From Spirochaetales bacterium (GTDB lineage: Bacteria > Spirochaetota > Leptospiria > Leptospirales > Leptonemataceae), in the NCBI GenBank assembly GCA_015075425.1, contig JABTUL010000001.1:682001-746000 (forward strand): 64,000 nt of DNA, given 5' to 3'. Shown in pieces: positions 58,982 to 64,000 of the stretch. Below the pieces are notes generated by a model. It was given only the letters and a program-made list of their open reading frames with translations. It made no database searches and was not told the DNA's origin. Positions within the stretch are counted from its first letter, which is position 1. Each line of letters opens with the position of its first letter. Position numbers and translations under genes: made by a program.

Positions 58982-59046
58982 TTTTCTAAGGTGTCCCCGT
59001 CCTTTTTTTGCATGACAGCATGCAGCACGCTAATGCTATAAGACCC

Positions 59047-60774
59047 ATGCAATACCGATGGGCCACCTCCGGCGATCTCAACGCCTTCTTTGCGCTGTTT
59101 CTCGATAATATTGTCAACCTGGTGCTTCTGGCATCTTTTATGATCAATATCTTTGGTTTCCCGGAAAATGTTATTTATACTTACATGATTCCTGGAACGG
59201 CGCTGGGTGTTATGTTTGGTGATCTGGTCTATACCTGGCTTGCTTTCCGTCTGGCAAAACGCGAGGGGCGGCAGGTTACAGCCATGCCTTTGGGGCTTGA
59301 CACTCCATCGACTATCGGTATGGTTTTTGCCGTCCTCGGGCCGGCCTTCCTCTATTTCAAATTTACAAAAGGGATGGATGAGCAAACGGCTGCTATGCTG
59401 ACCTGGAAAGTGGGTATGGCAACCATGATCTGGATGTCTGTAGTCAAAACGGTAACCAGCTTCTTTGGTGAAACCATCCAGCGTATCGTACCCACAGCCG
59501 GTCTTCTGGGTTCCCTGGCCGGGATAGGTCTGGTGTGGCTGGCAGCGGACTCTTTGATTCATATCTACGAGATTCCTTTTGTCGGGCTGATTTCTCTAAT
59601 TATAATTATTTTTACTTTAATGGCTCATTTTCAGTTCCCTCTGAAATTGCCCGGTGCCGCTGCCGCCGTTGTCCTGGGTTCGCTCATCTACTATGGACTG
59701 TTGTATGCCGGGTTTCTGGATCCTGTGCGCTACCGGATGCCGGAGTTTAAGGGTCTTTCTCTTCTTCTGCCGCTGCCTACCATGGCGGCCTTTGATGAAC
59801 TTTTTGGCGAAGCGCTGGCTTTTTTGCCGGTGGCCATTCCCTTTGGGTTACTCACCATCGTTGGTGGAATCAATGTAACGGAAGGAGCTCGCCTGGTGGG
59901 CGATCGTTACAAAACACGATCTATTTTGCTTACAGAGGCAGCGGCCACATTTCTTGCCGGTCTTTGTGGCGGCGTGTCACAATCCACTCCCTATATTGGT
60001 CATTCGGCTTATAAAAAGATGGGAGCCCGGGCCGCCTATACGCTTTTCACCGGCCTTGCCGTAGGTCTGGGCGGGATGTTTGGTCTGGTAGGTTTCATTG
60101 TCAGTTTGATCCCCAAGGCAGCTGTGGCGCCGCTACTGGTATTTGTGGGTTTTGAAATCATGACTCTCGCTTTTACCCATTCTCCGCGCAAGCATGCCAT
60201 GGCCGTGGTCTTTGCCATTGTACCCTCGATCTTAAACTATGGGTATATTAAACTGAAGTTACTTTTGCCCGGAGTGGCCATGACCGTCTCGCGGCTGACG
60301 GCGGAGATGCAGGGAGCGGTTGCGGAAGGTCATGTGGCGGCTCAGGGCTGGATCACCACGCTTGAAAGGATCATCCCCGCGACGGTTGCAGAAGAATACG
60401 TGCTGCTCGGGGCCCTGGGACAGGGGTTCATTCTCACGGCCATGATCTGGGGGGCCTGCGTGGCCTTTGTTCTGGATGGGCGCATCTGGCAGGCCGCGGT
60501 CAGTCTGGGAATCGCTGCCCTGTTCAGCTTCTTCGGGTTGATTCATTCGGTCATGCCCAATGGCGATCTGTACTGGCCCTTCCATCTGGCGGAAATTTCC
60601 GCCACCATGGTCAAAGAAACCGGCGTGGGATTGCATGAACGGGCCTTACACATCCCCTTTGAACTTACTGCGGCTTACCTGCTCATTGCTCTTTCTTTAC
60701 CGCTCATGTATTTCTTAAAACCCAGAGGTTCGGGGCAGATGGACGAGGAACCGGCCGTGGTCGTTCCGGAATAG
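59047..60774 (+). CDS. NCS2/AzgA-like permease, 12-14 membrane helices
   Basis: About 575 residues from ATG 59047 (QYRWATSGDLNAFFALF); ATG 59008 is the longest option. The body is nearly all membrane helix with the NCS2-like features DNIVNLVLLASFM, MPLGLDTPSTIGMVFAV, PTAGLLGSLAGIGLVWLA, GGINVTEGARLVGDRYKTRSILLTEAAATFLAGLCGGVSQSTPYIGHSAYKKMGARAAYTL. The last block resembles the GGxxxTTxYxExxG region of xanthine/guanine permeases, with SQSTPYIGHSAY replacing it. Purine or a related substrate is likely but not certain. A hydrophobic C-terminal third longer than usual is notable. Confidence 0.78.
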   Translation: MQYRWATSGDLNAFFALFLDNIVNLVLLASFMINIFGFPENVIYTYMIPGTALGVMFGDLVYTWLAFRLAKREGRQVTAMPLGLDTPSTIGMVFAVLGPAFLYFKFTKGMDEQTAAMLTWKVGMATMIWMSVVKTVTSFFGETIQRIVPTAGLLGSLAGIGLVWLAADSLIHIYEIPFVGLISLIIIIFTLMAHFQFPLKLPGAAAAVVLGSLIYYGLLYAGFLDPVRYRMPEFKGLSLLLPLPTMAAFDELFGEALAFLPVAIPFGLLTIVGGINVTEGARLVGDRYKTRSILLTEAAATFLAGLCGGVSQSTPYIGHSAYKKMGARAAYTLFTGLAVGLGGMFGLVGFIVSLIPKAAVAPLLVFVGFEIMTLAFTHSPRKHAMAVVFAIVPSILNYGYIKLKLLLPGVAMTVSRLTAEMQGAVAEGHVAAQGWITTLERIIPATVAEEYVLLGALGQGFILTAMIWGACVAFVLDGRIWQAAVSLGIAALFSFFGLIHSVMPNGDLYWPFHLAEISATMVKETGVGLHERALHIPFELTAAYLLIALSLPLMYFLKPRGSGQMDEEPAVVVPE

Positions 60775-60834: not shown

Positions 60835-61428
60835 ATGATTAATTTTGGTCTGGAAATAAAACTGCAGAGCACGGCTGTCATTCTCCGGCCCTGGGAAGCG
60901 GGTGATGCACAGAAGATTGTAAAGTCCGTCACAGAGCCCGCCCTCTGGCAGTATACGACGGAGAAGCTGACGACAGAGGCGGACGTTAGCGCTTACGTCT
61001 CAAGGGCTATCCAGGACCGTAGCGAGGGCAGGCGCTATTCGTTCGCGATATGTGCCGGTGCAAATGATGTCATCGTCGGCAGTTCAAGCTTTGGAAACGT
61101 CTCGTCCAGGGACCGTCGCGTGGAGATTGGCTGGACATGGCTGGCAACGGAGTACCATGGAAGCGGGCTCAATACAAGGGTTAAGTTTCTCATGCTGCGC
61201 TACTCTTTCGAGCAGCTTGGAGCCCACCGTGTGGAGTTCAAAACGGACAATGCGAATCCGCGATCATGTGCAGCCCTGAAGAAGATCGGCGCGCGAAGGG
61301 AAGGGGTGTTGCGGTCCCATACACTCATGCACGATGGGAGATATCGGGACACGGTTTTTTATTCGATTCTTGAGGAGGAATGGCCGGTTGTCGGGCCTGT
61401 TCTCGCTGAGCTGGCGGAGCAGGAGTAG
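60835..61428 (+). CDS. GNAT acetyltransferase, RimJ/RimL-like
   Basis: 197 residues. VILRPWEAGDAQKIVKSVTEPALWQYTTE at the N-terminus, EIGWTWLATEYHGSGLNTRVKFLMLRYSFEQLGAHRVEFKTDNANPRSCAALKKIGARREGVLRSHTLMHDGRYRDTVFYSIL at the C-terminus; this is the RimJ-type N-acetyltransferase pattern (acetyl-CoA loop YHGSGLNT, then NxRSxxAxxKxGA). Several AGG arginine codons appear (e.g. in SRA, SSRDRR, NTRV, ARREG), unlike neighbouring genes, hinting at recent acquisition. Its last 104 bp overlap the convergent DedA-ATP-grasp gene. Confidence 0.88.
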   Translation: MINFGLEIKLQSTAVILRPWEAGDAQKIVKSVTEPALWQYTTEKLTTEADVSAYVSRAIQDRSEGRRYSFAICAGANDVIVGSSSFGNVSSRDRRVEIGWTWLATEYHGSGLNTRVKFLMLRYSFEQLGAHRVEFKTDNANPRSCAALKKIGARREGVLRSHTLMHDGRYRDTVFYSILEEEWPVVGPVLAELAEQE

Positions 61429-63028
61429 TTGACGACTCCGGCAACTTCCCGATAGCGAGGCTGAGCAAGGTCAGACACCCGGCGGGTTTTGTCCCTCTCT
61501 TTATATTTTGCAGGCCGATTTCTACGGCAATGCGCCATTGCTGGAACAGGGTTTTAAACGCATGCAGCAGTGAATGTCGGGGATCATACATCCCGGTTGC
61601 TTCCGATGTCACGCCATTGAGCTCCAGGATTCGAATGTTTCTTCCGGCTTTTAAATCTGCTTCGTTGGGAACGCGGACATCATATCGGCCAAAAAAGAAT
61701 CCATCAAAATTTTTACTGATCCTGTCGATGCGCCGGATCAGTTGCGCGGTGGAAAGGTGACTGCCATCAAGAAAGAGAGCTCCCTTGCTGTGCGTTCCGA
61801 TTTTTACCAGAGGATGCAGTTTATCCTTTTCGAGCACGCGATCTAAATCAAGACGGTGATTCTGGATATGAAATTTTGCCATAAGAATGGCCCGCCCGTC
61901 CCTTAGAATAAGTTCTTCTATTGTGCTTCTGCCGTCTCCCCTCAGCGTCAGGAGTCTTTTGTCTGTAATGGAAAGAATTTTCCCCTCCCGGTCTTCAGGA
62001 TAACGGTAGTAAAAAATCCCATATTCGTGACCGCCAATGTATTCCTGGACGATGGTGTCGGGATTCGTTTCTGCCAGATAGGCTTCTACCTGTGCCCGGT
62101 TTCTGGCGATGAGAACGCCGTTCCCTCGCTCACCGCTATCGGGTTTGAGCACAATCGGAAAAGTTAACGATTGGCGGCGCATGAACTTTTGGACAAGAAT
62201 CATTCCTTCTTCTGGAATCGTGCCCTGTCGAATCGTAATGAAGGGGGCGACATTGCCGGAGTTGTGCGGGGAGGGCATCAACCCGCGTAGTATTGCAGAC
62301 TTTGATTCGCCCCGAATTCCGGAGGCAAAGATTGCCGGGTTTGCAGCGGTGAATGCCGCGAAGCAGCGGTGTCGAAGGGCCAAATAAACCAGGTAACCTG
62401 CTACGGGAATGTATAAGACCCACATGGGCCAGAATTCCCAGCGCAATAAGCGCTGCCAGCGGGAGTACAGCAGTCGCCTGCCTCGCCAGCTACTCAGAGA
62501 AAGCGCCAGCCTGGAGAGAAGCCAGATGCATAGAATGAGTCCGGCCATACTGACAAATCTTACCAGCGGCGGCGTCTCCTGAAAGCGTTCCAGAAGATAG
62601 GAGCCGGAAAGAAACGAGACAATCACCAGAAGCGGTGTCCATAGCAAAGCCGCGACAAGAAGCAGGGCTGCAAACCGATGGACCGGCATGCGCAGGACTC
62701 CCGCAGCCACATAGGTGGGCAATCGAGTCCCTGGCAGAAACCGACTTAAAATCACCATCGCCGGTCCCTTCTGTTCAATCCAGCGCTTGCCGCGGGCGAG
62801 CGTCTCAGCCGTTAGCAGGTGTCTCCCCAGACGGGTCTTCGTGAAGAGTCCGCCGCCCGCATAACCTGCCCAGTAGAGCAAAAGATCCCCGGTGACAATG
62901 CCCAGATACGCTGCCGCTGTTGCAGCCGGCAGACCCATCTGTGCGCGTGCGGCCAGATGGCCGGCAGCAATGCAAGCGAGGTCTTCGCTAAAAAAAGTAA
63001 ATAAGGCAATACCAAAAAATTCTGCCAC
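61325..63028 (-). CDS. DedA-type membrane protein fused to an ATP-grasp domain
   Basis: 567 residues. The N-terminal 200 residues are a DedA/VTT domain: FFSEDLACIAAGHLAA (acidic residue of the reentrant helix), GIVTGDLLLYWAGYAGG and the hallmark SRFLPGTRLPTYVAAGVLRM (RxxPxxR). After another membrane segment comes a cytoplasmic ATP-grasp domain (about residues 260-510): FPIVLKPDSGERGNGV, IVQEYIGGHEYGIFYYRYP, SITDKRLLTLRGDGRST and ILELNGVTSEATGMYDP (metal-ligand ENxxSE type). DedA proteins flip or move undecaprenyl phosphate or lipids; ATP-grasp enzymes ligate carboxylates to amines. The last 35 residues are Pro/Gln-rich and lie antisense to the GNAT gene, probably a neo-terminus. Confidence 0.83.
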   Translation of the reverse strand: MAEFFGIALFTFFSEDLACIAAGHLAARAQMGLPAATAAAYLGIVTGDLLLYWAGYAGGGLFTKTRLGRHLLTAETLARGKRWIEQKGPAMVILSRFLPGTRLPTYVAAGVLRMPVHRFAALLLVAALLWTPLLVIVSFLSGSYLLERFQETPPLVRFVSMAGLILCIWLLSRLALSLSSWRGRRLLYSRWQRLLRWEFWPMWVLYIPVAGYLVYLALRHRCFAAFTAANPAIFASGIRGESKSAILRGLMPSPHNSGNVAPFITIRQGTIPEEGMILVQKFMRRQSLTFPIVLKPDSGERGNGVLIARNRAQVEAYLAETNPDTIVQEYIGGHEYGIFYYRYPEDREGKILSITDKRLLTLRGDGRSTIEELILRDGRAILMAKFHIQNHRLDLDRVLEKDKLHPLVKIGTHSKGALFLDGSHLSTAQLIRRIDRISKNFDGFFFGRYDVRVPNEADLKAGRNIRILELNGVTSEATGMYDPRHSLLHAFKTLFQQWRIAVEIGLQNIKRGTKPAGCLTLLSLAIGKLPESSTTPAPPAQREQARQPAIPPQESNKKPCPDISHRA

Positions 63029-63037
63029 GTTGCCCTG

Positions 63038-63556
63038 TCAGTTCAGCACTGCAGCCTGTCCTTCGTGATGATAGATTGTCGATGGCGCGAAGCCAAAATG
63101 GCGCGGTGTGGAAATGCCATTGAGTCTCATAATGACAGCAATCAAAGCGTAGTGATGGATGGTGTGGCTGATCTGAAACGTAAGCTCCCGGCTGATTGTA
63201 GAACGCACCGGTGTCAGACCTTCAACGGGATTTACGTTCTGAATAATTTTGATTTCTCGATCCTCCTGGCCCAACTCCCGGAGCCGGGCCAGGATTTCCC
63301 TGATGGCGGCAGATGCTTCGGTTTGACTTGTTTCAATACTTGATGTTCTATCGCGTTGATCGTAGTTGATCATGCCGGAGGGCAGGTCCTTCAAGAAAGC
63401 CTGGTAGTGCTGGACGATATGACGAAAATGTCCGCCTGGACTTGATCCGTAAGTCTCCGCCTCTGACAAACCGTAGAGTGGAACAGGAAGGATCTCTAAG
63501 ATTTCCTGTCCTTGCTCCAGCAGAAAGCGATTTTGCCCGATAAGTTTCCTTATCAT
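63038..63556 (-). CDS. DinB-fold protein
   Basis: 172 residues, four-helix DinB/YfiT-like. GGHFRHIVQHYQAFLKDL near residue 42 has the first metal His and FQISHTIHHYALIAVIMRLNG near residue 130 the paired His motif. A long Glu/Arg-rich loop is in between. It lies 9 bp upstream of the DedA-ATP-grasp start on the same strand, so the two are probably one unit. It is distinct in sequence from the DinB-like protein at 7956-8516. Confidence 0.8.
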   Translation of the reverse strand: MIRKLIGQNRFLLEQGQEILEILPVPLYGLSEAETYGSSPGGHFRHIVQHYQAFLKDLPSGMINYDQRDRTSSIETSQTEASAAIREILARLRELGQEDREIKIIQNVNPVEGLTPVRSTISRELTFQISHTIHHYALIAVIMRLNGISTPRHFGFAPSTIYHHEGQAAVLN

Positions 63557-63755: not shown

Positions 63756-64000
63756 TTACTCGATCCCGGCGGCTTTGAGCTCCTCCAGGGTCAGCCCGGT
63801 GTCTTCGGCAATAATTTCAAGGTTCAGGCCGCGTCCGCGCATGCGGCGCGCTGTCTCGAGCTTGCCTTCGAGTTTGCCTTCGAGTTTGCCTTCGAGTTTG
63901 CCTTCGAGTTTGCCTTCGAGTTTGCCTTCAAGCTTGCCCCTGAGTTCGCATTCCGCCCTGATTTTTTCAGGTAGGGCCTGACCAGGTCCGTGATGTCCGC
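63756..64000 (-). CDS. Rpn-type nuclease/transposase family protein, 3' end
   Basis: The frame is open to the window edge and ends at TAA 63758-63756. The visible 80 residues contain EKIRAECELRGKLEGKLEGK and continue through seven KLEG-type units to ARRMRGRGLNLEIIAEDTGLTLEELKAAGIE. This is the characteristic C-terminus of the Rpn family (PD-(D/E)XK transposase-like, recombination-promoting nuclease). The nuclease core lies beyond the window. A competing frame just upstream of the repeat reads ADITDLVRPYLKK, which also looks natural, so a frameshift in or near the repeat is possible. Confidence 0.72.
   Translation of the reverse strand, partial: GHHGPGQALPEKIRAECELRGKLEGKLEGKLEGKLEGKLEGKLEGKLETARRMRGRGLNLEIIAEDTGLTLEELKAAGIE
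63855..63938. repeat. 12-bp tandem repeat, seven units
   Basis: Plus-strand unit CTTCGAGTTTGC occurs five times exactly, with one variant unit at each end (with CTCGAGCTTGC at the left and CTTCAAGCTTGC at the right). On the minus strand it encodes KLEG in the Rpn-type protein. Copy number is expected to vary by slippage without changing the frame, since 12 is a multiple of three. Confidence 0.88.

Follow-up and report, generated by a model that had tools for sequence, protein, structure and literature searches.

The window, the 64,000-nucleotide stretch of DNA analysed here, carries a gene that joins a DedA/VTT membrane domain to an ATP-grasp ligase in a single chain, and the same two domains recur in six phyla as parts of a conserved cassette that is linked to genes of the OlsB, OlsA or OlsF type, with both active sites retained. 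We put the chances at about even that the fused protein sits in the membrane and tailors acyl-amino-acid lipids of the ornithine-lipid type.

The fused gene and its active-site residues

The gene (Table 1) is read from a GTG start at 63028 to a stop at 61325 with zero internal stops, and is present in single copy in the window's own genome (4.13 Mb, 4 contigs). Both domains are above the Pfam cut-offs, VTT_dom (PF09335) with 56.7 bits against 33.9 (4.4e-15, residues 21–137) and the RimK ATP-grasp family with 25.7 bits against 21 (9.9e-6, residues 280–332), confirming the original prediction that one chain holds both. The RxxPxxR motif that it had pointed to in the DedA part is present as R96-F-L-P-G-T-R102, and E15, D16, D48, R96, P99, R102 and W130 do not vary in those relatives that have a DedA domain. 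The ATP-grasp part has K295, E335, K357, H413, R448, D450, E469 and N471 invariant in the relatives, and five of these (K295, K357, D450, E469, N471) are the nucleotide lysines and metal ligands of the superfamily, in agreement with the intact nucleotide and metal motifs first described. Since the motif residues are invariant in the relatives, both active sites are preserved in the fused protein.

Table 1. Positions in the window of the fused gene, its parts and its upstream partner.
Feature	Position	Strand	Basis
Fused gene, DedA/VTT + hydrophobic segment + ATP-grasp ligase, 567 aa	61325..63028	-	ORF, Pfam, relatives, AF2 model
DedA/VTT membrane domain, residues 1–180, with E15-D16, D48, R96-FLPGT-R102, W130	62489..63028	-	Pfam, invariant residues, AF2 helices
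Basic stretch and short hydrophobic segment, residues 181–222, with WEFWPMWVLYIPVAGYLVYLALRHR	62363..62488	-	Hydropathy, AF2, invariant residues
ATP-grasp domain, residues 223–522, with K295, E335, K357, H413, R448, D450, E469, N471	61463..62362	-	Pfam, PDB profile, Foldseek
DinB-fold protein, 172 aa, upstream partner gene	63038..63556	-	Pfam, AF2, Foldseek, adjacency, co-occurrence

The AlphaFold2 model of the fused protein (7 sequences, mean pLDDT 80.5, pTM 0.61) contains membrane helices and an ATP-grasp fold, in a relative placement that is unreliable at this pTM, and residues 530–567 (about the last 38), partly overlapped by a convergent GNAT gene, are of low confidence. In profile searches of the PDB the best match of the ATP-grasp domain is of the cyanophycin synthetase type (2e-9), and Foldseek returns CphA1, GshAB and Ddl (E 2.5e-8 to 7wae). 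CphA1, GshAB, D-Ala-D-Ala ligase and RimK, the amide-forming amino-acid ligases to which the domain is nearest, have the fold and the metal and nucleotide residues in common with the fused protein but carry the usual N-terminal substrate domain, in place of which the fused protein has the hydrophobic segment and the DedA domain. None of the equivalog or subfamily cut-offs is reached by the fused protein, the scores being 27 against 850–877 bits for cyanophycin synthetase, 10–19 against 243–489 for D-Ala-D-Ala ligase and 17.7 against 143 for RimK.

Hydropathy peaks at residues 199–219, within a hydrophobic segment (198–220) that is flanked on both sides by basic residues and contains the invariant E198 and P208. 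The model has a helix only at 207–220 (14 residues), preceded by a low-confidence break at 198–205, and the segment before the ATP-grasp core is retained in stand-alone ATP-grasp relatives too. It may be a re-entrant membrane anchor, since a full crossing would place the ATP-grasp domain outside the cytoplasm.

The DinB-fold gene ends nine bases before the start of the fused gene, as was first noted; the junction reads ...GTG CTG AAC TGA CAGGGCAAC GTG..., and the AGGG seen by eye in the gap is a possible ribosome site. At the other end, the GNAT acetyltransferase gene (60835–61428, plus strand) is convergent with the fused gene, the overlap covering about 34 codons at the latter's 3' end. The window also holds a 588-aa membrane protein (59008–60774, plus strand) with no Pfam match at E 1 and a relative at another family-set locus, and a 12-base tandem repeat of 6.9 copies at 63856–63938 that encodes repeated EGKL in a minus-strand frame at the window's end.

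Distribution of the fusion and composition of the cassette

The fusion was found in Spirochaetota, Verrucomicrobiota, Planctomycetota, Acidobacteriota, Bacteroidota and Azospirillum, altogether six phyla. Searching 61 genomes gave about 26 true relatives, to which members from Verrucomicrobiota (L031, L032), Planctomycetota (L033), Acidobacteriota (L034) and Bacteroidota (L035) were added by a named scan; the relatives include a contig of the same class (G046:C346) and the Spirochaetota MAG record JAKQXK010000649.1 (L036). The ATP-grasp profile A1 matches in 28 of 247 genomes of the window's phylum (Spirochaetota), 21 of 195 of the Verrucomicrobiota and 46 of 247 of the Bacteroidota. Plasmid-class replicons with the ATP-grasp gene were seen in Azospirillum (VTT-fused), Paracoccus, Komagataeibacter, Variovorax, Salinivibrio, Vibrio and Photobacterium, where the records call the products VTT domain-containing, D-alanine--D-alanine ligase or hypothetical proteins, and named homologues are present on replicons of sequenced strains, e.g. 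the ATP-grasp gene PDEN_RS24485 in Paracoccus denitrificans PD1222 and the fused gene AZOLI_RS25065 in Azospirillum lipoferum 4B. With regard to viral carriage, no relative was found in IMG/VR.

The 77 ATP-grasp loci comprise 22 with an alpha/beta-hydrolase–VTT–ATP-grasp chain (the hydrolase domain being assigned by Pfam), 25 with VTT–ATP-grasp, 28 without VTT and 2 cut by contig ends. VTT and ATP-grasp are encoded in a single frame in 47 of the 75 scored loci, over the six phyla, and the tree has at least seven changes between the fused and unfused states, a rough count as many forks are weakly supported. The partners of the cassette are also found side by side, namely in Salinivibrio with VTT, ATP-grasp, DinB and NRDE as four genes in a row, and in Paracoccus denitrificans with ATP-grasp, alpha/beta-hydrolase and VTT as separate neighbours, VTT on the opposite strand. 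That the domains occur in some genomes side by side and in others fused argues strongly for a joint function, and a real fusion under selective retention is supported. A merger through a lost stop codon, raised at the outset, and an assembly artefact are ruled out by the recurrence of the single frame in six phyla and by the unfused neighbours in Proteobacteria.

The layout is thus widespread, but it appears uncharacterised: no paper describing a DedA/VTT–ATP-grasp protein was found in the open-access literature, and open papers on ornithine lipid with ATP-grasp, or on VTT/DedA with RimK or DinB, gave no description of the protein. This agrees with the original prediction, which knew of no characterised protein of this kind.

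The participation of the DinB-fold gene, first proposed from its position, is borne out by adjacency and co-occurrence. By HMM it is located within 3.5 kb of ATP-grasp in 47 of 76 loci, in 46 of them on the same strand. Across the phylum's 247 genomes, 26 of the 28 that carry ATP-grasp also have a member of the DinB subfamily, against 1 of the 219 others (p = 1e-31), and within the window's class the figures are 25 of 27 against 0 of 21 (p = 1e-11); these p-values, like that for PF13444 below, ignore kinship. The DinB-fold protein matches PF05163 with 25.4 bits against a cut-off of 23 (1.5e-5), and its AlphaFold2 model (pLDDT 86.4) resembles YjoA (3dka, TM 0.64–0.66), DR0053 and YfiT in Foldseek, whereas the sequences of the subfamily gave no real match in the PDB. 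Retained residues are H43, R45, H46, Y65, R68, R70, R123, E124, H131, H134 and H135, a pattern such as would be expected of a metal-site enzyme.

An NRDE/TANGO2-like gene, often the third of the cassette, is found by HMM within 3.5 kb in 27 of 76 loci (26 on the same strand). Its co-occurrence with ATP-grasp holds across the phylum but is absent within the window's class (p = 1.0), and it is therefore considered an optional part. DinB and NRDE pairs also occur without an ATP-grasp gene (L160:4679-6736, L161:3105-4187), the first of them, in genome G015, directly behind an OlsB-like gene.

Acyltransferase genes of the ornithine-lipid type

OlsB-like genes are present within 3.5 kb of ATP-grasp in 15 of 76 loci and OlsA-like genes in 13, all on the same strand (HMM) and spanning five phyla, whereas the estimated chance expectation for a nearby OlsB is well under one locus, given about one OlsB gene per 4 Mb genome. 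The gene order is olsB, olsA, DinB and triple fusion in Bacteroidota (L125, L127, L128), olsB, olsA, DinB, NRDE and VTT–ATP-grasp in Verrucomicrobiota (L145), and olsB, olsA and triple fusion in an acidobacterium (L034); at L032 the fusion is followed by olsB and olsA, a Spirochaetota locus (L044) has olsB, DinB and ATP-grasp, and Variovorax (L079) has ATP-grasp and olsB. The best NCBIfam match of the neighbouring acyltransferases scanned is ornithine N-acyltransferase OlsB (6e-40 to 2e-51), with 138–175 bits against equivalog cut-offs of 320–350, and that of the second acyltransferase is lyso-ornithine lipid O-acyltransferase OlsA (5e-35, 4e-41); as the best matches fall under the equivalog cut-offs, they are named OlsB-like and OlsA-like here. 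A glycine lipid as first substrate was considered and rejected, the nearby acyltransferase being nearer to OlsB than to GlsB (8e-7).

Among the 247 genomes of the phylum, PF13444 (OlsB/OlsF/GlsB type) is found in 27 of 28 with ATP-grasp against 28 of 219 others, and within the window's class in 26 of 27 against 13 of 21, a weak link (p = 0.006, kinship ignored). There is no OlsB-like gene within 3.5 kb in 61 of the 76 loci, the window's own included; the genome to which the window belongs does carry one, intact, at L175:7996-8754, on a contig other than that of the fused gene. Where OlsB is absent nearby, most of the ATP-grasp genomes checked have a PF13444 frame that corresponds to OlsF in length (543–661 aa), and no PF13444 match was obtained in ATP-grasp genome G007 (Spirochaetota, 81% complete) or in 3 of 12 Bacteroidota genomes checked. 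OlsB/OlsA, OlsF and GlsB/GlsA make a lipid with one headgroup, and genes of this kind are found either next to the cassette and codirectional with it, in five phyla, or at other sites of the genome; the ATP-grasp protein, which has no homology to them, would follow them in the pathway.

Proposed role in aminolipid synthesis

With ornithine-lipid acyltransferase genes beside the cassette, a membrane lipid is the likely substrate of the fused protein, in line with the lipid-linked substrate suggested originally. ATP-grasp ligases form an acyl phosphate from a carboxylate, which is then attacked by an amine, and a free carboxylate is available on the OlsBA or OlsF product; amidation of this carboxylate is the simplest reading. 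OlsB/OlsA or OlsF would first make an N-acyl amino acid lipid with a free carboxylate, and the ATP-grasp domain, kept at the inner face by the hydrophobic segment, would phosphorylate a carboxylate, most likely the lipid's own. An amine, which could be another amino acid or a molecule like taurine, would attack the activated carboxylate to give a two-headgroup aminolipid of the ornithine-taurine or glycine-serine lipid kind, which the DedA domain would carry over the inner membrane. Flipping is not always coupled, since the ATP-grasp chain of several relatives lacks a DedA domain. The DinB-fold protein, the NRDE/TANGO2-like protein and, in many relatives, the alpha/beta-hydrolase might perform further steps on the same lipid.

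A second reading has the ATP-grasp domain couple an amino acid, through its carboxylate, to the side-chain amine of the aminolipid or to a different amine in the membrane, e.g. that of phosphatidylethanolamine, giving an amide of opposite polarity in the same pathway. ATP-grasp enzymes accept many carboxylates, ornithine lipids have a free delta-amine and the OlsB/OlsA context fits equally; the nearest profile relatives, cyanophycin synthetase and glutathione synthetase, which activate the carboxylate of the growing chain, favour instead activation of the lipid carboxylate, and we regard side-chain aminoacylation as unlikely, if still a serious competitor. The PDB relatives of the DinB/YfiT fold include mycothiol and bacillithiol transferases, and an ECF sigma factor paired with an anti-sigma of the NrsF type is located upstream in some Spirochaetota loci, which would suit a cassette for a stress-linked thiol or small molecule: a peptide-like thiol would be the ATP-grasp product, the DinB-fold protein would transfer thiols, and the part of DedA would be limited to envelope homeostasis. 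This would leave the OlsB/OlsA neighbours and the conserved hydrophobic segment of the ATP-grasp members unexplained, no thiol-ligase family is over its cut-off, and the odds appear to be well against it.

It is improbable that the chain links an amino acid or a peptide to wall precursors, undecaprenyl-linked or other, with the DedA domain as their flippase. UptA-type DedA proteins carry undecaprenyl phosphate and UptA is the best NCBIfam match (4e-14), but with 53.1 bits against a cut-off of 250, and no recurrent wall, O-antigen or teichoic genes were seen beside the cassette, where the recurrent neighbours are ornithine-lipid acyltransferases. The undecaprenyl-phosphate cargo of the original prediction was rejected on these grounds. 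UptA and YqjA/YghB share with the fused protein the VTT fold, the conserved acidic residues and R-x2-P-x2-R, whereas the C-terminal ATP-grasp domain and the gene neighbours set it apart. An accidental gene merger without joint function, to which the stand-alone ATP-grasp relatives (28 of 75 loci) might point, is hardly credible with a fusion in six phyla, both sites retained, unfused partners side by side and repeated changes between the two states.

Aminolipids with two headgroups have been described, among them ornithine-taurine and glycine-serine lipids (PMC10191378, PMC12493201, PMC4484230). Gluconobacter (PMC4484230) is the source of the ornithine-taurine lipid. This acetic acid bacterium belongs to the Acetobacteraceae, as does Komagataeibacter, whose plasmids carry the ATP-grasp gene, a fit that is suggestive only. 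The text on Singulisphaera (PMC12493201) describes an ATP-dependent amide synthetase and an alpha/beta-hydrolase, OlsH and OlsI, acting on aminolipids; there OlsH is a GH3 enzyme joining a fatty acid to ornithine and not an ATP-grasp protein, and no DedA, DinB or NRDE part is reported in that text. By analogy with OlsI the alpha/beta-hydrolase of the cassette may be an acyltransferase, or else a hydrolase; in several Bacteroidota loci its nucleophile serine motif was not found and it may be degenerate.

Some bacterial lipids with two amino headgroups are sensed by the human immune system. The fused protein is a good candidate for the enzyme adding a second amine to ornithine-type lipids, and provides a candidate gene for second-headgroup addition where a 2023 review states the route to glycine-serine lipids to be unknown (PMC10191378). 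More tentatively, and at somewhat less than even odds, the DinB-fold, NRDE/TANGO2-like, alpha/beta-hydrolase, DedA and ATP-grasp parts, in varying fusions, could form a widespread undescribed system that builds and flips two-headgroup aminolipids, ATP-grasp adding the second headgroup, e.g. the taurine of the ornithine-taurine lipid or the serine of flavolipin-like lipids. If true, a DedA protein gains a defined lipid cargo, and a poorly understood DinB subfamily and the bacterial NRDE/TANGO2 proteins are placed in a pathway.

Other genes recur beside the cassette. The ECF sigma factor and NrsF-type anti-sigma are positioned directly upstream of DinB–VTT–ATP-grasp in Spirochaetota loci (L045:5550-6697, L053:6011-7394, L054, L055, L062), which suggests stress control of the cassette. 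In Variovorax (L079:5092-8878) and Komagataeibacter (L082:4100-7032) ATP-grasp adjoins genes for a methyltransferase and for an iron enzyme resembling haem oxygenase (PF14518), and this conserved pair may alter the product further. Across L036, L038, L039, L041–L043, L133, L135–L138 and L140 the recurrent neighbours are a small membrane protein of the DoxX type, in Spirochaetota an adenylate/guanylate cyclase-like protein, and in Bacteroidota a YHS-domain protein.
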